From Pseudomonas viciae (GTDB lineage Bacteria; Pseudomonadota; Gammaproteobacteria; Pseudomonadales; Pseudomonadaceae), in contig NZ_CP035088.1 in the NCBI RefSeq assembly GCF_004786035.1, positions 150,001 through 214,000 on the forward strand: DNA of 64,000 nt, given 5' to 3'. A model generated the notes under the pieces. The model saw only the letters and a program-made list of their open reading frames with translations, was not told where the DNA came from and did no database searches. How positions within the stretch are numbered: the stretch's first letter is position 1; each line of letters begins with the position of its first letter. Positions 18,719 to 58,696 of the stretch are shown here, one piece after another. A program made the translations under genes and the position numbers.

Positions 18719-18889
18719 TCCGCTTCAAGCGCAAAGGGCACGAGAGCGCTGTCCCTTTGCGTGTTTCACCCGTTCTGTTTCTTGTGGCCGGAACGCTGCG
18801 GCAGTCGATCATCGCATGCTGTCGCAGTTGCCTCCCGGCCATGTATTCCTTGAACCACGCCGACCGATGAGCGGCGAATGAGGACTGTA

Positions 18890-26026: not shown

Positions 26027-26104
26027 TCACCCGTTGAATTGATGTTGACTGATGCTCGGGTAGAAACCGGAGACATCCTTTATAGGTGTGAAATACGGTC
26101 AGGA

Positions 26105-26123
26105 GGTGCCTGACCATGCCCTG
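26105..26123 (-). other. Hairpin downstream of the orphan leader
   Basis: Read on minus, GGTCAGG-CACC-TCCTGACC forms a stable short hairpin right after the orphan leader. It lacks a T tract, so it may be part of the leader rather than a terminator. Confidence 0.45.
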
Positions 26124-26124
26124 G

Positions 26125-26385
26125 ACCGCTTGCACGTAATGGAGGGGGGCAGCTGTGTACGAGTGTGCAAGACCGAGTCACCTACCCAAACTCGGTAGAT
26201 CCGAAGATCTCCCGAACACAGCCGTCATAGAACACGGGCGCGAATGGCTAGAAGCATTCTGGGTGGGTGTTTACTCGGACTTGCACGTCCGTGTCACCGT
26301 TTTTTGCGATGATGAACCAAGGTTAGCGGCAGAAAACCAGGGTGCCTAGTTCATGAACAGCCCAGCGTTTTGAAGGAAATATCCG
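26125..26385 (-). ncRNA. Structured leader element, orphan copy
   Basis: The minus strand holds a diverged copy of the leader found at 47900-48212. Shared parts in order: ATTTCCTTCAA (26380-26370); AAAAAACGGTGACAC; a hairpin CGGAC-GTGCAA-GTCCG (26291-26276); an outer stem from GGCTGTGTT to ACACAGCTGCC (26226-26148) enclosing AGATC-TTCG-GATCT (26210-26197) and ACCGAGT/ACTCGGT; CTTGCAC (26171-26165); GTGCAAG (26135-26129). No DUF6124 gene follows it; about 90 bases later the sequence reaches the 3' end of the convergent GGDEF-EAL gene. Two copies with compensating changes support an RNA structure. Confidence 0.6.
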
Positions 26386-44942: not shown

Positions 44943-46889
44943 ATGTCTTTGTTCAAACAGCTGTTGATCGCTATCTGTCTGTTCCTGGTGGTTGCCTTCA
45001 GTGGCAGCTTCATGGTCAGCCTGGAGAGCTCGCGGACCCAGTACGTCAACCAGTTGCGCTCCCACGCCCAGGATGCGGCCACGGCGCTGGCGCTGTCGTT
45101 GACGCCGAACATCGACGACCCGGCGATGGTGGAGCTGATGGTCAGCTCGATCTTCGACAGCGGCTATTACGCGAGCATCCGCGTGGTCGACGTGACCACC
45201 GACAAAACGCTGGTCGAGCGCACGGGCATTCCGGACGCCGGCAGCGTGCCGAAATGGTTCGTCAAACTCATTGGCCTGGAGCCGGCCGGCGGTGATGCGA
45301 TTGTCAGTCGTGGCTGGGAACAGGCGGCGCGAGTTGAGGTGGTCAGCCACCCGATGTTCGCTCTCGCCAAGCTGTGGCAAAGCGCGTTGGGCAGCCTCGG
45401 TTGGTTACTGCTGTGCGGCGCCGTGAGCGCGGTGCTGGGGGCCTTGCTGCTGCGTCGTCAGCTCAAGCCGCTGGATTACATGGTGCACCAATCCCATGCC
45501 ATCGCCCGTCGTGAGTTCTTGAGCCTGCCGGAATTGCCACGTACCCCTGAATTGCGTCGCGTGGTGCAGGCGATGAACCAGATGGTCGAGAAGCTCAAGG
45601 CACTGTTCCAGGAACAGGCCGAGCGCAGTGAGAAGCTGCGGGTCGAGTCCTATCAGGACAACCTCACAGGCCTGGCCAACCGGCGTTATTTCGAAATGCA
45701 GCTCAATGCCCGGGTGAGCAACCCGGAGCAGGCCAGTTCCGGTTATCTGCTGTTGCTGCGGGTCAAGGACCTGGCTGGTTTGAACCAGCGGTTGGGCGGG
45801 CAGCGTACCGACCAGTTGCTTAAAGCGGTTGGTGAACAATTGCTGCGTGAGTGCGCCCGGTATCCGGAAACCCAAAACCTGGTGACGCGCATCCGCGGTG
45901 GGGAGTTTGCTGTGCTGGCGCCCGGGTTGGTGCGTGAAGAGGCGTTGCAACTGGCGCAGAACCTTGAAGGGGCGTTGGCGAGCCTGCACGCCACTGGCGC
46001 GACCGATGTGGCTTCGGTGGCCTCCATCGGATTGGCACCGTTCGTCCATGGCGACTCGCCGCAAGCGGTGCTCCAGCTCGGCGATCAGGCTCTGGCCCAA
46101 GCCGAAAGCCAGGGCGAACCGGGCTGGGCCTGCCTGGATCACAGCGCCTCGGCGAGCGTCGGCGACGATCACCATGCCTGGCACACTTTGCTCGACCAGG
46201 CCTTGAATCATCAGCGATTCGAGCTGTATTTCCAACCGGTGGTCGCCGCCCAGGACACCCAAGTGGTGCTGCATTACAAAGTGCTGTCGCGGTTGTTCGA
46301 CGAGCAGGGTCAGACCATCCCTGCCGGGCGCTTCCTGCCCTGGCTGGAGCGCTTTGGCTGGACTGCGCGCCTGGACCGCTTGATGCTCGAGCAGGTGCTC
46401 AAGCAGATGGCCGGGCACGATCAATCCCTGGCGCTGAACTTGTCCTCTGCGACCCTGGCCGATCCTCAGGCGCTGAACAAGGTTTTTGAAATTCTGCGGG
46501 CGCATTCCAACCTCGGGCCGCGCCTGACGTTGGAGATTGGTGAAGAGCAACTGCCGGAGCAAGCCGTCCTGGAGCAATTGACCCGGCGTTTGCGCGAGCT
46601 TGGCTTCTCTCTGAGCCTGCAGCGTTTTGGTGGGCGGTTCAGCATGATTGGCAATTTGTCGCGGCTGGGGTTGGCTTATCTGAAGATCGATGGCAGCTAT
46701 ATCCGCGCGATTGATCAGGAAAGTGACAAGCGCCTGTTCATTGAAGCGATCCAGCGGGCTGCTCACAGTATTGACTTGCCGTTGATTGCCGAGCGGGTTG
46801 AGACGGAGGGGGAGTTGGCGGTGATTCGGGAGATGGGGTTGTTTGGGGTGCAGGGGCAGTTGGTGGGTGAGCCTAAGCGTTGGGAGTGA
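44943..46889 (+). CDS. lapD: Inner-membrane c-di-GMP receptor LapD
   Basis: A 648-residue receptor: first helix ~5-25, periplasmic sensor ~26-150, second helix ~151-172, HAMP to ~230, degenerate GGDEF and degenerate EAL domains. The GGDEF motif reads RGGEF and the EAL position reads KVL (YKVLSRL), so both are inactive enzymatically. When the EAL-like domain binds c-di-GMP, the periplasmic part holds LapG away from LapA; when c-di-GMP falls, LapG is freed. The length equals that of P. fluorescens Pf0-1 LapD. Co-transcribed with lapG. Confidence 0.95.
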   Translation: MSLFKQLLIAICLFLVVAFSGSFMVSLESSRTQYVNQLRSHAQDAATALALSLTPNIDDPAMVELMVSSIFDSGYYASIRVVDVTTDKTLVERTGIPDAGSVPKWFVKLIGLEPAGGDAIVSRGWEQAARVEVVSHPMFALAKLWQSALGSLGWLLLCGAVSAVLGALLLRRQLKPLDYMVHQSHAIARREFLSLPELPRTPELRRVVQAMNQMVEKLKALFQEQAERSEKLRVESYQDNLTGLANRRYFEMQLNARVSNPEQASSGYLLLLRVKDLAGLNQRLGGQRTDQLLKAVGEQLLRECARYPETQNLVTRIRGGEFAVLAPGLVREEALQLAQNLEGALASLHATGATDVASVASIGLAPFVHGDSPQAVLQLGDQALAQAESQGEPGWACLDHSASASVGDDHHAWHTLLDQALNHQRFELYFQPVVAAQDTQVVLHYKVLSRLFDEQGQTIPAGRFLPWLERFGWTARLDRLMLEQVLKQMAGHDQSLALNLSSATLADPQALNKVFEILRAHSNLGPRLTLEIGEEQLPEQAVLEQLTRRLRELGFSLSLQRFGGRFSMIGNLSRLGLAYLKIDGSYIRAIDQESDKRLFIEAIQRAAHSIDLPLIAERVETEGELAVIREMGLFGVQGQLVGEPKRWE

Positions 46890-46924: not shown

Positions 46925-47235
46925 GTGTACATATCCATTCCTGCGGTAACGGCCACTGGCGGTTCCGCCCTTACGGCGGGTCACTTTTGGCAAACGCCCC
47001 AAAAGTAACCAAAAGGTCTTGCCCCACCACTCGGCATCTCGCCTAGGCTCGGTGTGCCCGAACGCAGGCATTGCTCCGTGGGCCCGCCGCGAAGGGCCAT
47101 CCATGGCCCAGCGCGGCTATCCCGGCATCCATGCCGGGATGCCCACTCCACAATGCCTGCGTTCGGCCAGCGTGGTTAACGGGGCGCCGAGATCAACGTC
47201 TACCGCGAGGCGGCCTTAGAGCCGACCTGGTTCTC
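46925..47235 (+). repeat. Left arm of a ~310-bp inverted repeat
   Basis: This block (from GCGGTAACGGC through GGGTCACTTTTGG and CCTAGGCTCGGTGTGCCC to GCGGCCTTAGAGCCGACCTG) recurs inverted at 47572-47881. It contains a hairpin ATCCCGGCAT/ATGCCGGGAT at 47119-47140 whose counterpart in the other arm differs by paired changes. It is probably a dispersed repeat of fluorescent pseudomonads. Confidence 0.85.
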
Positions 47236-47571: not shown

Positions 47572-47881
47572 GAATCAGGTCGGCTCTAAGGCCGCCTCGT
47601 GGTGGACGTTGATCTCGGGGGCCCCGTTAACCACGATGGCCGAACGCAGGCATTGCGCAGTGGGCACCTCGGCATGGATGCCGAGGTAGCCGCGCTGGGC
47701 CATGGATGGCCCTTCGCGGCGGCCCACGGAGCAATGCCGGAGTGAGGGCACACCGAGCCTAGGCGAGGTGCCGAGTGGTGGGGCAAAGCGTTTTTGGTTA
47801 CTTTTGGCGCTCTTCCAAAAGTGACCCGCTGTAAGAGCGGAACCGCCAGTAGCCGTTACCGCAGAAACGGATATACACCCC
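47572..47881 (-). repeat. Right arm of the ~310-bp inverted repeat
   Basis: Inverted copy of 46925-47235 with scattered substitutions and small indels. The internal hairpin at 47666-47687 is ACCTCGGCAT/ATGCCGAGGT, with compensatory changes against the left arm. Confidence 0.85.
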
Positions 47882-47899: not shown

Positions 47900-48212
47900 A
47901 GGAGATTTCCTTCAAGTTGTAGCGAAGTCGGTGAACTTGTCCGGCGTCAGCCCCGTGGCTAGTCTGGGTTTGTCACTGAAAAAACGGTGACACCGGCGTG
48001 CAAGCCGGTTAGAAAGACGCCCAACAATATCACCAGCCACTTATCGTGCATTCGTGCTCATGTTTTATGGCAGCTGTGTGCGGGAGACCTTCGGGTCTGC
48101 CGAGGTTTTTGGGCGTTGTCTTACTCGGTCTTGCACACTCGCACATAGCTGCCACCCTTCATTGCGTGCAAGCGATCCAGGGCGGCTCTGAATTGAATAG
48201 GAAGCCCAAACC
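47900..48212 (+). ncRNA. Structured leader of the DUF6124 gene
   Basis: About 310 bases before the DUF6124 start form an ordered set of elements also present at 26385-26125 on minus: ATTTCCTTCAA (47905-47915); GTCAC...GTGAC; hairpin ACCGGC-GTGCAA-GCCGGT (47992-48009); outer stem GGCAGCTGTGTGCG (48069-48082) with CGCACATAGCTGCC (48140-48153), enclosing AGACC-TTCG-GGTCT (48085-48098) and CCGAG/CTCGG; CTTGCAC (48130-48136); GTGCAAG (48166-48172). GGGC (48180-48183) and GCCC (48204-48207) can close a loop holding the ribosome-binding AGGAA. The CTTGCAC can pair with either GTGCAAG. Confidence 0.65.
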
Positions 48213-48584
48213 ATGTTCAAAGCTACGCCTAACCCTCCACAGCCCTCATCCAAATCCCGAGTCGAAACCCTGCAAGCAAAAAAGCTCGACGAAGCCGCCG
48301 AACGCGCCCTCGACTACTACCTCAATCCCAAACCAACCGATGAAGCCTCGGGAAAACCCCAAACCGCCCAGCTCTTCATGGTCTCCCCGGACATCGACAC
48401 CGAAACCCTCCTGGCCAATGCCTCCGAAGACCTGCTGTCCATCAGCGCCATCGCCGCCGACCTGGCGGATGACGTCGACGGCTCGCGCCGCAGCGTGATC
48501 CTGGCAATCAGCCGAATGGCCGATGGGGTGCATCTGTTGGTGGAGCGGGCGATGGATCGGCTTGAAGTGCAAGCGTCGAGCTGA
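48213..48584 (+). CDS. DUF6124 family protein
   Basis: A 123-residue soluble protein. It has the family start MFKATPNPP, then KKLDEAAERALDYYLNPKP, and a helical C-terminal half containing FMVSPDIDTETLLANASED and LLVERAMDRLE. The function is unknown; such genes are found in several copies in fluorescent pseudomonads. AGGAAG lies about seven bases before the ATG. It follows a long structured leader and is followed by a REP pair. It lies between lapD and the lapA adhesin but on the opposite strand to lapA, and need not relate to adhesion. Confidence 0.85.
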   Translation: MFKATPNPPQPSSKSRVETLQAKKLDEAAERALDYYLNPKPTDEASGKPQTAQLFMVSPDIDTETLLANASEDLLSISAIAADLADDVDGSRRSVILAISRMADGVHLLVERAMDRLEVQASS

Positions 48585-49296: not shown

Positions 49297-52200
49297 TCAG
49301 CTGTTGTTGTGATCGACCTTGATGGTCGGGTCACTGCCGGCGATCAGCGAGTTCAGGTTGACGTTCGACCAGTTGTTGCCTTCGAGCTTGATCGTTACGT
49401 CCGGTGTGGCCGCTGCGCCGTTGGCCGCGTTGAACTGGCCGGTCGTGCTGACCTGCAGCGACGACACGCCATCGACCGTGCTGATTTTCAGGAAGTGGTC
49501 AATGGTGCTGCCGGTTTCGCCCTGCAACAGATCCCGCAGGTCGATCCGGTCGCCGTCGCTGGCCTTGAAGTCCTTGATCACGTCGGTGCCGGTGTCGCCG
49601 GACTTCCAGACAAAGGTATCGCCTCCCAGGCCGCCGATCAGGGTGTCATTGCCCGGGCCACCGAGCAGGGTGTCGTTGCCAGAGCCACCCAGCAGGATGT
49701 CATTGCCCTTGCCGCCATTGAGCGTGTCGTTGCCGCCCTGGCCGAAGAGAATGTCATTGCCGGCGCCACCGAGCAGGGTGTCGTTGCCATCGTGGGCACC
49801 GGACACATCGAACGCGGTGTAGTGCTCGGTGATGTACTGGTGCACGTTGCTGGTGGTGACTTTGCTGACGTCCACACCGCTCTGCTGGGCGACGAACGCC
49901 TGGATAGCCTGATAGCCCTCGCCGGCGATGCCGTTGAAGCTCACCAGGTCGCCGAACAGGATGTCGTTGCCTTCGCCGCCGTTGACCGTGTCGGAGCCCG
50001 GCAGGGTCGCTTCGGTGTGGCCGATGATCGAGTTGGCCAGGTTGTTCGGGTCGATGTTGGTCTGCGGTGTCGAGTCCGAATCGTAGGGCTTGAGGTCGTT
50101 CAGGGTCACGTCGTTGTTCAGGCCGATGGCTTCGACCGTACTCAGGCCCTTCAACAGTGTGAAGCTTTCGCTCGAGCCTGTTGCCGAATCGACATAGTTC
50201 CAGTAATCGCCATAACCGGTGCCACCCAGGTTCGACAGTTCAAAGGTGCCATTGCCCTCGGCATGTACCTTGCCCACATAGCTATCGGTCCATTTCTTGC
50301 CGTTTTTGGTCGACAGGTACATCTCACCGTTTTCGTAGATGGTGTACTTGTGCGTGCTGTCGATCGTCTGGGTGTAGTACTTGCCGACGGTGTACTTGGA
50401 GGCGCTCAGTACGTCATCGAGTTTGACGTTGTCATACAAGGTCGGGTTGGTCTGCTCACCGGTCTGGTAGTAGGTCGGCTTACCGTCGGTAATGAAATAC
50501 GTCAGGTTCTTCGCGCCGGTATTGCCCATGGCTTCGGTACTTTTGAAGAAGTTCGCCGTGGTCTTGAACACGTCTTCGTAGTTGGTGCCGCCACCGGAGG
50601 CCATCGAGTCGAGCACGCCTTTGAGTTGGTTCAACGCGTCCGGGTCGTTAAGGTTGACCGAGACAGACGTGTTCACCTGGCTGTCGAAGTCCGCCAGGAA
50701 GATGTTCACGGTCCCGGAGTTGCCGCCCATGCTCTGCTTGAGGGTGTTGAACACCGAGGTCAGCGAGTTTTTGGCCGCCGTGAGGGACGCCTCGCTCATA
50801 CTGCCGGAGCTATCGACCATGAAGGCGATGTTGTAGTTGGTGCCCGGCACCACTGTCAGCCCGCCGATGTCAGCGACCACCACGTCGTTACCGTCGGTGC
50901 CGGTCACGTTGTCACTGCCGGAGGTGGCGGTGATGGCGTTGTAGGTCGCCGGGTACACGGTGACTGGGATCTGCGCCGTGGTGGTCGCCGATCCGCCGAG
51001 GGCTTCGGTGGAGGTGGAAGTCACGGTCAGGTTGAGCTGGCCGTTGTAATAGGTCGGCGGGGTCAGGGTCAGGCTGCCCAGGTTCCAGCCACTGACCGAC
51101 GCTTCGCCGTTGCTGCCCACGGTCGCGAAGTGGCCCGCGCCGTCGCTCAGCACACTGCCTTCCGGCATGCCGCCAATCTTCACGCTCAGGCTTTCGGAGC
51201 CGTCGGTGTCAGTCAGGGCGGTGGTGATTTTCGACAGGTGCACGCTGGTGCCTTCGGCGCCTTCGTTGAGCTTGAAGCCGTCGTAATAACCTTCGCCGTT
51301 GGTACCGTGCAAATCGGAGACCGTCACGCCAGCGTTCGTCAGGTCGGTCACGCTGGTGTACAACGGCACGCCGGCGCCGTTCAGGTCGACCGGTGTGCTG
51401 CCGTTGACCGACAGGTTCACGTCATAGCTGCCCGGACCGGTCTGGTTGTGGTGGTAGATGTCCAGGGTGTAGTAGCCGCTGGAGGTCGGGGTGAACGAGC
51501 CGTTCAACTTGCCGCCCGCGCCCCAGGTGATGGCCGCCACGTCCTTGCCGCCGATGGTCACCAGCAGGCTGTCGTCGCCGGTACCGCTGAAGGTGTAGGT
51601 CTTGCCGGCTTCGAGGAAGATCAGGCCCGAGGTTTTCGACGCTGTGCCCGGGTTGACGTTGCTGTCGGACTGCACGTTGGTCACGGTGCCGCTGCTGTTC
51701 GGCGTGCCGGCGGCATCGATCACCGATTTAAGGGTGCCGGATGGCGCACCGCTGCCATCGGTGCCCAGGCCCGACAGGCCGGTCCAGACCTCCTTGATCA
51801 AACCGGTGGAGGTCACGGCGTTGCCGGCCACGTTGAGGGTCGGTGCGTCGGCGACTGGGGTGATGTCGATTTTCACAGTGCCGGTATTGCCCAGTGCCTG
51901 GCCATCGGTTTGCTGGAATTTGACCTGTGCGTAGTCGGCCTGGTTGTTGCCCGTGCTGCTGCCAACATAACCATTGGCGCCGGACTCGTTGGCGTCCGGA
52001 GTGAAGCGCAGCTTGCCGGCGTCGATGTCAGCCTTGGTGAAGGTCTGGTTGTTGGCCACGTCCTTCCAGGTTGCACCGTCCAGGTACTGCAATTTGCCAT
52101 CGGCCGGCAGCTCGGTGATTTTCACACCCAGGCTGGCGGCGGCATTGTCCACGTCGCTGACGCCGAAGGTCGACCAGCCGAGGACCAGAGAAGTGTCTTC

Positions 52201-55200
52201 GGTACCGGTCACGGCGCCGCCAGTGGCAACCGGCGCATCATTGACCCCGACCACGTTCACCGTGGTGGTGGCGGTGTTGGAGTAGTTGCTGCCATCGGTC
52301 ACCGTCACGGTGATGATGCGCGGCACGGTGCTCGGATCTTCGCTGTTGTTAATGAAGCTGATGTTCTTGATCTGCTGCATGTAGTCGGCCAGCGTCGCGT
52401 TGCCCGACAGCGTCAGCGTGACTTTGCCATCGGTGCTGTTGGCGTTGATGCTGATGCCGTTGACGCTGTTGCCCAGGTTCAGCGCATCGCCGGGCTGACG
52501 GTTGGTCAGCACGATGGTGGCGCCGGTCAGCATGGTGCTGTCCGGGTCGGTGATTTTCAGGTCGGTGTCGCCGATGGACACGCCCGGGCCAGTGGTGCCT
52601 TCGGTGAAGGTCACCTGATAATCGGCGCCGGACTTGCCGCTGGAGTTGTTGGCGTCCAGGTCGAGCACTGGCGGCGCATCGTTGTCGATGATCGAGGTGC
52701 TGACGCTGCCGTTGGTGCCGCTGACAGCCAACTGCTCGAAGTTGCCACCGGTGGCCGAGTCAATCTTGACCACGAAGTTTTCCGTGCCTTCGGTGATCTT
52801 GTCATCCAGTGTTGCCACGTCAAAGGTGGCACTGGTGGCGTTGGCCGGGACCTTCACGGTGTACACCCCGGTGAAATCCGTGCCGTCGGCGGCGGTACCG
52901 CTGTAGACGATTTTGACCGTCACCTCGGTTTGCGCCGGATTCGTCAGGCTGACTGTGTACGTGGCGGCTTGGCCTTCGGTGACCGAGGTGCTGCCGGAGA
53001 TGCTGACGGTGGTGGTGTTGACGGTGTCGGTGACATCGGTGACCGCTGGCGTGGTGCTTGGCACCAGGTTTTCGAAGTTGCCACCGGTGGCGTTATCAAT
53101 GCTGACTTCGACTTTGCCGGCGTCTTTGTAGACGTCGTCAGTCGGTGCATCAACGCTGACGCTACCCGTGGTGGCGCCGGCAGCGATGTTGATCACGGCA
53201 CCGTTGCTCAGGGTTACGGTGACTGGAGTGCCGGCGGCATTGGTCAGGGTTGCGGTGTAGGTGATCTGACCACCTTCGGCGACAGTATCGGTTGCCGACA
53301 GAGTCAGGCCCGTGGAGTCTTGGACATCAGTGACCGAGGTTTCAGCCGGTGTTTGATCTGCAACCAGGTTCTCGTAATTACCGCCCTGAGCGTCGTCAAT
53401 CTTCACGCTCAGTGAATCACCACCCGCCAACGCATCGTTTGGCGTGGTGAAATTCACAGTGCCCGAACTGGAGCCGACCGGAATCGTGATGCTCTGGCCG
53501 TTGCTCAAGGTCACAACCAGTGGAGCACCGGTGACCGGAGCATTGACCGAGGCGGTGTAAACAACGGTGCCGCCTTCGGCCACGGTAGAAGTAGCAGTCA
53601 GGCTGACGGTTGACGTATCGATGGTGTCAGTAACGTCAGTGACGGCTGGCGTGGTGCTTGGCACCAGGTTCTCGAAGTTGCCGCCGGTGGCGTTATCAAT
53701 GCTGACTTCAACTTTGCCGGCATCTTTGTAGACGTCATCAGTCGGTGCATCAACGCTGACGCTGCCCGTGGTGGCGCCGGCAGCGATGTTGATCACGGCG
53801 CCATTGCTCAGGGTTACGGTCACTGGCGAACCAGCGGCATTGGTCAGGGTTGCGGTATAGGTGATCTGACCGCCTTCGGCGACGGTGTCGGTCGCCGATA
53901 GAGTCAGGCCCGTGGTGTCCTGGACATCGGTCACTGAAGTGTCGGCAGGCGTGCCGTCGATTTCCAGTTTTTCATAGTTGCCGCCCTGAGCGTCATCGAT
54001 TTTCACGCTCAAGTTATCGCCGCCAGCAAGGGCGTCGTTTGGTGTAGCGAAGTTGACCGAGCCGCTGCTCGAACCGACCGGAATGGTAATGCTCTGGCCG
54101 TTCGACAGAGTGACGACCAGCGGAGCACCGGTGACCGGAGCATTGACCGAGGCGGTGTAAACGATGGTGCCGCCTTCAGCCACAGTCGAGGTCGCGGTCA
54201 GCGAAACGGTGCTGGTGTCGATGGTGTCAGTGACATCAGTAACCGCTGGCGTGGTGCTAGGTACGAGGTTCTCGAAGTTACCGCCAGTGGCGTTATCAAT
54301 GCTGACTTCAACTTTGCCGGCATCTTTGTAGACGTCGTCAGTCGGTGCATCAACGCTGACGCTGCCTGTGGTGGCACCGGCGGCGATGTTGATCACCGCG
54401 CCATTGCTCAAGGTTACGGTCACTGGCGAACCAGCGGCATTGGTCAGGGTTGCGGTGTAGGTGATCTGACCGCCTTCGGCGACGGTGTCGGTCGCCGATA
54501 GAGTCAGGCCCGTGGTGTCCTGGACATCGGTCACTGAAGTGTCGGCAGGCGTGCCGTCGATTTCCAGTTTTTCATAGTTGCCGCCCTGAGCGTCATCGAT
54601 TTTCACGCTCAAGTTATCGCCGCCAGCAAGGGCGTCGTTTGGTGTAGCGAAGTTGACCGAGCCGCTGCTCGAACCGACCGGAATGGTAATGCTCTGGCCG
54701 TTCGACAGAGTGACGACCAGCGGAGCACCGGTGACCGGAGCATTGACCGAGGCGGTGTAAACGATGGTGCCGCCTTCAGCCACAGTCGAGGTCGCGGTCA
54801 GCGAAACGGTGCTGGTGTCGATGGTGTCAGTGACATCAGTAACCGCTGGCGTGGTGCTAGGTACGAGGTTCTCGAAGTTACCGCCAGTGGCGTTATCAAT
54901 GCTGACTTCAACCTTGCCAGCGTCTTTGTAAACGTCGTCAGTCGGTGCATCAACGCTGACGCTGCCTGTGGTGGCACCGGCGGCGATGTTGATCACGGCG
55001 CCATTGCTCAGGGTCACAGTGACCGGGGTTCCGGCGGCGTTGGTCAAGGTTGCGGTGTAGGTGATCTGACCGCCTTCGGCGACGGTGTCGGTCGCCGACA
55101 GAGTCAGGCCCGTGGTGTCCTGGACATCGGTCACTGAAGTGTCGGCAGGCGTGCCGTCGATTTCCAGTTTTTCGTAGTTGCCGCCCTGAGCGTCATCGAT

Positions 55201-58200
55201 TTTCACGCTCAAGTTATCGCCGCCAGCAAGGGCGTCGTTTGGTGTAGCGAAGTTGACCGAGCCGCTGCTCGAACCGACCGGAATGGTAATGCTCTGGCCG
55301 TTCGACAGAGTGACGACCAGTGGAGCGCCGGTAACTGGTGCGTTCACCGAAGCGGTGTAAACGATGGTGCCACCTTCAGCCACAGTCGAGGTCGCGGTCA
55401 GCGAAACGGTGCTGGTGTCGATGGTATCAGTGACGTCGGTGACCGCTGGCGTGGTGTTTGGCACCAGGTTTTCGAAGTTGCCGCCAGTGGCGTTATCAAT
55501 GCTGACTTCAACCTTGCCGGCATCTTTGTAGACGTCATCAGCCGGTGCGTCGACGCTGACGCTGCCCGTGGTGGCGCCGGCAGCGATGTTGATCACGGCA
55601 CCGTTGCTCAGGGTTACGGTGACTGGAGTGCCGGCGGCATTGGTCAGGGTTGCGGTGTAGGTGATCTGACCACCTTCGGCGACAGTATCGGTTGCCGACA
55701 GAGTCAGGCCCGTGGAGTCCTGGACATCAGTGACCGAGGTTTCAGCCGGTGTTTGATCTGCAACCAGGTTCTCGTAATTACCGCCCTGAGCGTCATCGAT
55801 CTTAACGCTCAAGTTATCGCCGCCAGCGAGGGCGTCGTTTGGTGTGGTGAAATTCACGGTACCTGAGCTGGAGCCGACTGGAATCGTGATGCTCTGGCCG
55901 TTCGACAGAGTGACGACCAACGGAGCGCCGGTAACCGGTGCGTTCACCGAAGCGGTGTAAACGATGGTGCCACCTTCAGCCACAGTCGAGGTCGCGGTCA
56001 GCGAAACGGTGCTGGTGTCGATGGTATCAGTGACGTCGGTGACCGCTGGCGTGGTGTTTGGCACCAGGTTTTCGAAGTTGCCGCCAGTGGCGTTATCAAT
56101 GCTGACTTCAACTTTGCCGGCATCTTTGTAGACGTCGTCAGTCGGTGCATCAACGCTGACGCTGCCTGTGGTGGCACCGGCGGCGATGTTGATCACCGCG
56201 CCATTGCTCAAGGTTACGGTCACTGGCGAACCAGCGGCATTGGTCAGGGTTGCGGTGTAGGTGATCTGACCGCCTTCAGCCACTTCGGTGGACGCCGACA
56301 AGCTCAGGCCGGTCGCGTCGACCGAATCGGTGATTGTGGTGACCGCAGGCGTAGTGCTCGGCACCAGGTTTTCAAAATTGCCACCCGTTGCGCCAGTAAT
56401 GGTGGTGCTAACGGTGCTGCCATTGTTGTAGACGTCATTGGCCGGGGTATCGACAGCGACGGTACCGGTGGTCTGGCCCGCAGCGATGGTGATGACCGAG
56501 CCGTTGCTCAAGGTCACGGTCACTGGAGTTTGAGCCGGGTTGGTCAGGGTAGCGGTGTAAGTGATCTGGCCGCCTTCAGTGATGGTCTCGCTGGCGGTCA
56601 AAGTCAGGCCGGTAGCATCGACCGAATCAGTGATTGTGGTAACTGCAGGCGTGGTGCTTGGCACCAGGTTTTCAAAATTGCCGCCGGTCGCACCGGTAAT
56701 AGTGGTGCTAACGGTGCTGCCATTGTTGTAGACGTCATTGGCCGGGGTATCGACGGCGACGGTACCGGTGGTCTGGCCCGCAGCGATGGTGATGACCGAG
56801 CCGTTGCTCAAGGTCACGGTCACTGGAGTTTGAGCCGGGTTGGTCAGGGTAGCGGTGTAAGTGATCTGGCCGCCTTCAGTGATGGTATCGCTGGCGGTCA
56901 AAGTCAGGCCGGTCGCGTCGACCGAATCGGTGATCGTGGTGACCGCAGGCGTGGTGCTCGGCACCAGGTTTTCAAAGTTGCCGCCGGTCGCACCGGTAAT
57001 AGTGGTGCTAACGGTGCTGCCATTGTTGTAGACGTCATTGGCCGGGGTATCGACAGCGACGGTACCGGTGGTCTGGCCCGCAGCGATGGTAATGACCGAG
57101 CCATTGCTCAAGGTCACGGTCACTGGAGTTTGAGCCGGGTTGGTCAGGGTCGCGGTGTAAGTGATCTGGCCGCCTTCAGTGATGGTCTCGCTGGCGGTCA
57201 AAGTCAGGCCGGTAGCATCGACCGAATCGGTAATCGTGGTGACCGCAGGCGTGGTGCTCGGCACCAGGTTTTCAAAATTGCCACCCGTTGCGCCAGTAAT
57301 GGTGGTGCTAACGGTGCTGCCATTGTTGTAGACGTCATTGGCCGGGGTATCGACAGCGACGGTACCGGTGGTCTGGCCCGCAGCGATGGTAATGACCGAG
57401 CCATTGCTCAAGGTCACGGTCACTGGAGTTTGAGCCGGGTTGGTCAGGGTAGCGGTGTAGGTGATCTGGCCACCTTCAGTCACCGTATTGTCTGCCGACA
57501 GGGTGACGTTGGTGGTGTCGATGGTGTCGGTGATCTGGGTTACGGCCGGCGTGGTAGGCAGGGTCACGGCAATGCCGCTGCCGCCGGTGGTACCGGTGAC
57601 GGTCACGCTGATCTGGCTTGGGTCGTTGTAGACGGTGTCGTTCGGTGCCAGCGGTACGTTGACGCTGCCGGTGGTTTGTCCGGCAGGAATCACGATCACG
57701 GAGCCGTTGGACAGGGTCACGGTCAGGTCGGTCTGGGGCGCCTGGGTAACGGTCGCGGTGTAGACCAGCACGCCGCCGGCCTCGGTCAGAGTCGGGGTGG
57801 CGCTCAGGGTCAAAGTCGAATTGAGCAGCGCGTTGGCTGTGGTGTCAGCATTGGTGTCGCCGCCTGTGATGTCGTCGTCAGCGGCTGCGGTCGTGCTCAA
57901 ACCTTCAGTCGGGAAACCCACGGTGGGATCGACGCTGCCAGCGGTGGCATCCAGCACCACAAAGCTGTGGCCGCCACCGGCGGCACCACCCGTACCTGCG
58001 GCGGTAGCGCCGGCGGCGGTGGCTTCCAGGGCGGTCGTCGGGTCGACGCCTGCGGCGATGGCTTGTTGTAGCTCTTCTACCGACGGCGCGGCCTGAGCGG
58101 TGGCTTGTGCCAGGTCAGTGGAAGAATCTGGAGCACTGGCGCTCCACTGAGTGTCGCGGCCCAGGTCCAGGGAGCGGCCATCGGCCAGCTCCAGTGTGAC

Positions 58201-58338
58201 GGCGCCGGCAGGGCCGGTGTCCAGCTGGTCGCCCGTGTACAGGCGATCCCCTTCAATGAGTACGCGCCGAATGCCCTCGGGGGATACGGCGAAAACCTGA
58301 CCGACAATGCTTTTGACAACGGCAACAACACTGCTCAT
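49297..58338 (-). CDS. lapA: Giant biofilm adhesin LapA
   Basis: A 3013-residue type I-secreted adhesin. Residues 1-~95 form the retention module that plugs LapE. The LapG cleavage motif TAAG is at 107-110 and a second TAAG at 112-115. Residues ~280-1775 are Ig-like repeats: 300-bp units (56.3-57.5 kb) and six ~600-bp double units (53.0-56.3 kb). A Calx-β domain (~1780-1885), cadherin-like (~2025-2125) and PA14-like (~2240-2315) domains follow. A VWA domain has DSSGS from Asp2509. RTX nonapeptides (GGxGNDxL, ~2785-2910) and a C-terminal secretion signal end the protein. Start ATG 58338 follows GGAG by nine bases. Confidence 0.93.
53041..56340 (-). repeat. 600-bp double-domain repeats in lapA
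   Basis: Units begin at 53041, 53641, 54241, 54841, 55441 and 56041 with exactly 600-bp spacing. Units 54241 and 54841 are identical over hundreds of bases. Each unit encodes two ~100-residue Ig-like domains (one with [14 protein letters not shown], one with [15 protein letters not shown]). Confidence 0.95.
56341..57540 (-). repeat. 300-bp single-domain repeats in lapA
   Basis: Four units with starts at 56341, 56641, 56941 and 57241, exactly 300 bp apart and almost identical. Each encodes one Ig-like domain with [14 protein letters not shown] and [18 protein letters not shown]. They lie next to the N-terminal side. Confidence 0.95.
57994..58020 (-). other. LapG cleavage region of LapA with two TAAG motifs
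   Basis: Codons 107-115 read T-A-A-G-A-T-A-A-G. LapG cuts between the two Ala of TAAG; in P. fluorescens Pf0-1 this is at residues 108/109, the same position as the first motif here. A second TAAG follows after one residue. Confidence 0.85.
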
Positions 58339-58696
58339 TGAAGATTCTCCGGGTGCCACGCTCAGTAGACTTCCATGGACCCGCGGCCAATGGCAGCAAC
58401 GGTCTGGACGTTCTTGTTTCACTAAATAAGGTTGTTTTGACGCTTTTCGGTGTCAATATTTTGGCTTATTTTTTTTGGATGATTTGTTTGTGCCAAAGTA
58501 TTGACCTTATGCTGGCCATCCTAAACAATCGCTGCCGCAATGTCACATTGATATTTAAGCGGCGACCTGTTCTTTCGGTGCATGTTCCAGCTCCTGCTTT
58601 GAACTTTCCGACATACGGTTATTCCGGTTGCCATCATCCGATGCAGCGCCACGTTTCGCTGTGATCCAAGACAAGTGTTTCAGGAAGAAATCCACT
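58339..58696. promoter_or_regulatory. Divergent lapA-lapE promoter region
   Basis: These 358 bases separate the two start codons. The part 58430-58560 is T-rich and low in GC. It holds an inverted repeat at 58452-58505, described separately. I see no gene here; a short frame from 58628 is the unlikely 5' extension of lapE. Confidence 0.6.
58452..58505. promoter_or_regulatory. Inverted pair of FleQ-box-like sites
   Basis: GTCAATATTTTGGC (58452-58465) and GCCAAAGTATTGAC (58492-58505) are inverted copies with one mismatch in 14 and a 26-base T-rich centre. Each half read as GTCAATANTTTGGC matches 11 of 14 positions of the FleQ box GTCAATAAATTGAC. FleQ with c-di-GMP is known to control lapA in pseudomonads. 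Confidence 0.5.

Follow-up and report, generated by a model that had tools for sequence, protein, structure and literature searches.

A family of chromosomal P1-type C4 RNA loci that probably restrain their own DUF6124 genes in Pseudomonas viciae

Analysing a window of 64,000 nucleotides from Pseudomonas viciae (contig NZ_CP035088.1, positions 150,001 to 214,000; coordinates below count from the first letter of this stretch), we recovered near 48 kb what is very probably a chromosomal P1-type C4 locus restraining its own DUF6124 gene, one of a family that carries many differing pairing codes per genome and whose leader cassettes seem to be swapped between loci. C4 is the RNA by which phage P1 silences its antirepressor, in a locus ordered a1b1-C4-a2b2 with the a1/a'/a2 layout and with icd and ant coupled. 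The sequence shows directly how the leader is structured, that it covaries and that a' and b' complement both a1b1 and a2b2, and by its conservation this C4 locus, known in kind, looks functional.

The C4 leaders of the window

Comparison with Rfam, which an earlier reading made from the letters alone (hereafter the sequence-only reading) had proposed, identified C4 (RF01695) in both of two diverged copies, with 66.7 bits (E 6.6e-13) at 48063..48159 on the plus strand and 49.9 bits at 26142..26232 on the minus strand, over a cut-off of 45. That reading had noted the same hairpins and compensated stem changes in the two copies, and a CTTGCAC complementary over seven bases to both of two GTGCAAG; all these letters were found in place in both copies. 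Beyond the score, membership of the family is borne out by a covarying three-helix core and, in the 48-kb copy, by the complementarity of a' to a2 and of b' to b2, b2 lying at the ribosome-binding site (RBS) of the gene that follows; in the 26-kb copy a2 is present and the gene is absent. Given the C4 match over cut-off, a novel RNA class or riboswitch was dropped as a reading.

On the plus strand, the 48-kb leader opens with a promoter-like candidate recognised by pattern, TTGTCC-N17-TAGTCT (47937..47965). The pattern TTGNNN-N16-18-TANNNT, with N restricted in its first part and picked once the sequences had been read, occurs 118-138 nt 5' of C4 at 17 of the 22 sites where the P. viciae (home) genome carries this RNA, versus a mean of 0.69 and a maximum of 4 in 200 mononucleotide shuffles. 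The a1b1 region follows, with hairpin 1 (GTCAC..GTGAC, 47972..47991), paired in the predicted fold, then the a1 hairpin ACCGGC-GTGCAA-GCCGGT (47992..48009), whose a1 (GTGCAAG, 47998-48004) complements a' over seven bases, and b1 (GACGCCCAACAA, 48016..48027), which complements b'. Hairpin 1 lies within a match to c4-a1b1 (RF03163), a family matched at the right position by both copies of the window, below its cut-off of 46.7 bits (18.1 at 48 kb, 21.7 at 26 kb). Within C4 lie the b' loop (TTTTTGGGCGTTGTCTTA, 48106..48123) and a' (CTTGCAC, 48130..48136), the seven-base complement of a1 and equally of a2 (GTGCAAG, 48166..48172), which forms the loop of hairpin 48161-48176. Finally, the RBS AGGAAG (48199-48204) stands just 5' of the start codon, which b2 (GCCCAAACC, 48204-48212), the pairing partner of b', abuts, and the gene (48213..48584) encodes a product of 123 aa matching DUF6124 (Pfam PF19619, E 2.8e-27). 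The b' loop pairs better with b1 (-16.5 kcal/mol) than with b2, for which the energy is modest (-11.7 for the core stretch, -14.7 for the whole loop). When this locus is set against its relative L066, TTTGGGC/GCCCAAA becomes CTTGGGC/GCCCAAG in the b'/b2 core, and by eye the two substitutions compensate each other.

The fold of the 48-kb leader is better than those of 200 of 200 shuffles (z -3.35), and that of the 26-kb copy is less clear (z -2.10, with 9 shuffles equally good). An enclosure of the RBS by GGGC and GCCC, as earlier suggested, holds as far as both motifs are present (48180-48183 and 48204-48207) and able to pair, but the predicted best fold lacks this pairing and puts the RBS in another hairpin (48193-48220), the loop of which contains GCCC; this GCCC is also part of b2.

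In the 26-kb copy (minus strand), the letters of a1 (26280-26286), a' (26165-26171) and a2 (26129-26135) were confirmed, and stem 1 of C4 has three non-standard pairs. The designation of DUF6124 as the controlled gene fits the 48-kb copy, whereas no DUF6124 lies behind the minus-strand copy. Syntenic relatives (L078, L087, L102 and L103) carry the gene at the gap, located at 26047..26118 (minus strand) by aligning relatives on both sides, and on this comparison the 26-kb copy has lost a gene that its relatives kept. Of 20 possible trans targets, the 48-kb gene is predicted to suit the 26-kb C4 best (-23.8 for a plus b), by a narrow margin over L006 (-23.5).

Covariation, looked for in a larger alignment as the sequence-only reading had advised, was well above chance across the 22 home C4 loci: both sides had changed in 15 of 26 pairs against a shuffled mean of 7.8, and the covariation score was equalled by 0 of 500 shuffles. 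In this alignment 96.7% of cells pair, versus 35-41% when the partners are shifted by 1-3 columns, a comparison that favours the true structure because it was derived from the same alignment. A model-fitted alignment, which still included six weak antisense matches, gave the same covariation result. The a' site itself is varied, with 29 different 8-mers over 159 loci, and at least seven of its bases pair (G-U allowed) with the own a2 at 133 of the 159 loci and with the own a1 at 147 of 159, against 183/1577 (~12%) and 250/1575 (~16%), respectively, for random partners. This complementarity of a' to two partners is common to most C4 loci examined, so that the switch-like look of the leader corresponds to the ordinary C4 layout.

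The 48-kb locus is flanked by a LapD_MoxY_N, GGDEF and EAL gene (44943-46889) and by a 3041-aa repetitive ORF (49297-58422) that is adhesin-like by eye. Matches to TwoAYGGAY RNA (RF01731) lie just 5' of it (47043-47179, minus strand; 47663-47725, plus strand), and a gabT RNA match (RF01738, 57.9 bits) was found elsewhere in the window (18783-18843, plus strand). A third C4-DUF6124 locus, L020, is close by; its C4 lies 1.1 kb beyond the window end, and its protein shares 81% identity with the 48-kb DUF6124.

The nearest named relative of the DUF6124 protein is from P. kilonensis (97% protein identity). By profile, DUF6124 and DUF3077 are related (E 1.1e-6, probability 90.9), and kinship with the 'MNRYM' family was ruled out (hhalign probability 0.6). 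An AlphaFold2 model built on 83 sequences shows three helices (pLDDT 79.1, pTM 0.49), the single-sequence model being poor (pLDDT 65.0). Neither DUF6124 against PDB sequences (up to E 0.1) nor the model in Foldseek searches of viral and PDB libraries (E <= 0.001) gave a match. No paper mentioning DUF6124 was found in a search that left most subscription papers outside; DUF3077, unlike DUF6124, is mentioned in one paper of the literature searched.

Pairing codes and leader cassettes

Taken together, the C4s fit their own genes by predicted pairing. For the 20 home loci having a start codon, optimal assignment of b' to b2 returned the own gene in 20/20 cases, with 0 of 100000 permutations as good, and the row-best partner was the own gene for 15/20 with b alone and 20/20 with a plus b; the 48-kb locus, whose own b2 is only second-ranked for b alone, is one of five such home loci. 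For b' and b1, the summed own energy beats 100000 permutations, with an own row-best of only 12/22. A second genome, with 35 C4s over cut-off, of which 30 were retrieved and 27 usable, behaved likewise (row-best own 22/27 for b alone and 24/27 for a plus b; 27/27 own in the optimal a plus b assignment).

Loci from mixed genomes were also compared. Removing six antisense matches (20-26 bits) from 66 loci left 60, and 77 others brought these to 137; the pairing tests used those with a start codon 40-62 nt past C4, and counting identical b' loops once reduced 128 to 85. In the two resulting sets, of 53 and 33 loops, the summed own b'/b2 energy gave z -15.3 and z -16.8, respectively. Own row-bests reached only 19/53 and 22/33 for b, and 20/53 and 14/33 for a plus b, while the a plus b assignment fell on the diagonal for 22/53 and 29/33, an incomplete matching that is expected since similar codes recur between genomes. 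An avoidance of equal codes inside named genomes was considered as well: similar b' loops occurred in 0 of 48 same-genome pairs versus 76 of 2653 between-genome pairs, the former being too few to carry that reading.

Where b' is similar within a genome, a' mostly differs: in all five such home pairs (edit distance up to 3), and in five of six in the second genome (distance up to 2), the sixth being an adjacent duplicate. Among relatives with at least 75% protein identity and different b', own pairing beats swapped pairing in 268 of 312 non-independent pairs, with 26 ties and 18 in which the swap is better. For a possible control in trans of the DUF6124 genes L028 and L031, which have no C4, the best of the 22 home loops by the b part alone are those of L001 (-18.8) and L004 (-14.2), respectively.

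Among 106 syntenic pairs drawn from 70 loci, leader identity is bimodal, at 0.54-0.64 in 26 pairs and 0.76-1.00 in 80 (individual values come from 42 of the 106, namely the 30 lowest and 12 highest), and in the 26 low pairs the genes are 0.78-0.95 and the flanks 86-95% identical. L087 and L102, for instance, share 97% of their protein and 93% of their flanks, with leaders only 59% identical. Leader types also recur at several sites: L102 and L103, from the 26-kb locus, share the GGTACC type with L018, L105 and L088, from the L018 locus, and L068 (48-kb locus) shares the GTCTGCC type with L071 (L020 locus). This bimodality and these shared types suggest an exchange of leaders as cassettes, the b1-C4-a2-b2 unit seeming to be replaced as a whole between paralogous loci; gene conversion would give the same picture. 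The stretches 3' of the gene are mosaic too. In some pairs of the upper group b' differs, as in L124/L129 (leader identity 0.76), so that code change is not limited to whole swaps. The DUF6124 genes are under purifying selection in 14 hand-picked pairs (dN/dS 0.06-0.42), with a dN/dS of 0.06 between the 48-kb gene and its relative L064 (97% identical), and in four pairs the leaders are identical despite a dS of 0.12-0.16.

Distribution of C4 and DUF6124

Besides its 22 C4 loci, the home genome holds 20 DUF6124 matches, of which 17 lie behind a C4 by coordinates, one of these being a fragment ~0.9 kb past the C4 at locus L004, where the gene is truncated; no C4 was detected upstream of the other 3. 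One further C4 precedes DUF3077, two (L009, L011) precede small proteins without a Pfam match, and L019 and L022 have no recognisable gene behind them. Among 80 named DUF6124 loci, the top-ranking ones of 199 and all titled Pseudomonas, C4 stands just upstream at 74 and was not found at 6; the distance from C4 to the start codon has a median of 50 nt over 130 loci.

The genus was sampled with 149 genomes, home included; 138 carry C4 (median 13 copies) and 118 carry DUF6124, never without C4, and the two copy numbers are correlated (rho 0.87 over the 149 genomes, the top counts entering as at least 27 for C4 and at least 38 for DUF6124). In a class-wide sample of 274 genomes, in which the family was represented by just one further genome and the order by two more, DUF6124 was confined to the home genome, and C4 appeared in 17 of the other 273, with at least 1 to at least 6 copies each, these counts being lower bounds from the best 15 candidates per genome (home 15, actual 22). 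Of the c4-a1b1 matches at E up to 1, 9 of the home genome's 21 pass the cut-off; control genomes had such matches in 9 of 14, none over the cut-off.

The genes behind C4 are diverse. At 60 loci from 59 genomes, a set that favours canonical C4 because it was taken from a score-ranked list, 53 ORFs comprised 13 DUF6124, 12 DUF3077 and 7 Bro-N, with 21 matching no family at E 0.01. Nineteen of these loci (among L144-L203) have a first ORF of 52-57 aa, mostly MxALNPSK-like, and a second ORF that overlaps it by ATGA at 14 and by more at 2; for the remaining 3 the script picked a GTG start. Such ATGA-overlapping pairs resemble the icd/ant coupling of P1. In phages phiAH14b and Phipami28, C4 is likewise followed by peptides resembling these first ORFs.

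Three loci (L028, L031 and L046) keep a c4-a1b1 match without C4, and the first two, where further TwoAYGGAY RNA matches occur, still have a DUF6124 gene. At L041 in the home genome a C4-less DUF6124 lies beside a gene that is repressor-like by eye, with a PrrF match nearby. DUF6124 was found in one of 50,697 phage records, adjoining prtR, and in none of 72,556 plasmid records; at L208 (EU982300.1, 1368-1854), C4 and DUF6124 are divergent from the prophage repressor gene prtR.

Mechanism, alternatives and known systems

We propose that a single transcript would carry the a1b1 hairpins, C4, a2b2 and the DUF6124 gene, that RNase P would excise C4 from it, and that a' would catch a2 while the b' loop covers b2 beside the RBS, holding down translation of DUF6124 from its own gene; relief of this repression and a role for a1b1 are presumed in the scheme. 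The accessible text of PMC5320573 describes C4 as binding its target through a' and b', with b' partly covering the RBS, and as being released by RNase P. What stands of the sequence-only reading is thus an RNA regulator that covaries, most likely controls the translation of DUF6124 and possibly base-pairs in trans; a two-state switch of its own kind gives way as the main mechanism, the element being the C4 of Rfam, in which double complementarity of a' is usual. We take it as likely that the loci form a family of phage-immunity modules that have been domesticated, and that each one silences the small protein encoded behind it.

Such a switch acting in cis, in which the pairing of a' with a1 or a2 in the unprocessed transcript alone would set access to the RBS, perhaps in response to a signal, appears very unlikely to us: a' complements both a1 and a2 at most loci, two pairings that are possibly mutually exclusive, and b' complements both b1 and b2, with a preference for b1 in the window, but the core is that of a known antisense RNA which, in the accessible text of PMC5320573, acts on target mRNAs once processed. 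Small proteins under antisense control in many copies per genome would also suit an arrangement like type I toxin-antitoxin systems, with C4 as the antitoxin and DUF6124 and DUF3077 proteins inhibiting growth; Icd of the P1 C4 operon inhibits cell division (PMC8198154, accessible part). We regard this as unlikely, since C4 and the gene seem to share one upstream promoter (a single pattern having been sought) and fold searches with the DUF6124 model gave no lead.

That the loci are decaying prophage debris, functionless today, is hardly credible. C4 is a phage RNA, carried by Pseudomonas phages such as PAJU2, and 2 of the 22 home C4 loci lack a gene, with one further gene broken; against this stand the purifying selection on the genes tested, the identity of leaders at dS 0.12-0.16 in four pairs, and the advantage of own over swapped pairing in 268/312 pairs. 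Within the preferred reading of C4 loci that restrain their own genes, we raise tentatively, and with some doubt, that the leaders make up a repertoire of swappable RNA specificity units stemming from phage heteroimmunity. A two-part code (a and b), traded among paralogues, would keep neighbouring loci separate, and the set could in addition target, in trans, C4-controlled antirepressors of phages or other elements entering the cell.

In its accessible part, PMC2864571 lists C4 for Proteobacteria and phages, and the accessible text of PMC5320573 adds that this work predicted it in Pseudomonadales too. Our search of titles and abstract openings, with subscription papers mostly outside, returned nothing on C4 families in Pseudomonas, and many C4 loci with separate, exchangeable codes before DUF6124 seem to have no description in the literature searched. 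These loci tie the large Pseudomonas family DUF6124, along with the related DUF3077, to a single regulatory mechanism, offer dozens of natural antisense pairs for the study of how RNA specificity evolves, and raise the question of why chromosomes keep often ten or more phage-immunity devices, 35 in one genome.

With the C4 of phages P1 and P7 (RF01695), the Pseudomonas loci share the three-helix core, the a' and b' sites and the location of b2 at the following gene's RBS; they differ in being chromosomal, in occurring at many loci per genome with differing codes, and in their predicted targets, where small proteins, DUF6124 and DUF3077 among them, take the place of icd/ant, and the apparent exchange of leaders between loci is a Pseudomonas feature when set against P1/P7. 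The Group 1 sRNAs of Acinetobacter baumannii likewise comprise 21 similar C4-type RNAs in a single genome with a variable a' and have an RNA-seq pattern resembling RNase P processing, but the accessible text of PMC5320573 names for them neither a linked target gene nor a matching of b' to an own target. The c4-a1b1 family (RF03163) has the same upstream hairpins with a1, from which the window copies differ by scoring below its cut-off. Phage PAJU2 has the same succession of C4 and, ~50 nt on, an ORF, Bro-N antirepressor-like by eye; there the setting is a phage and the antirepressor-like gene is itself the predicted target.
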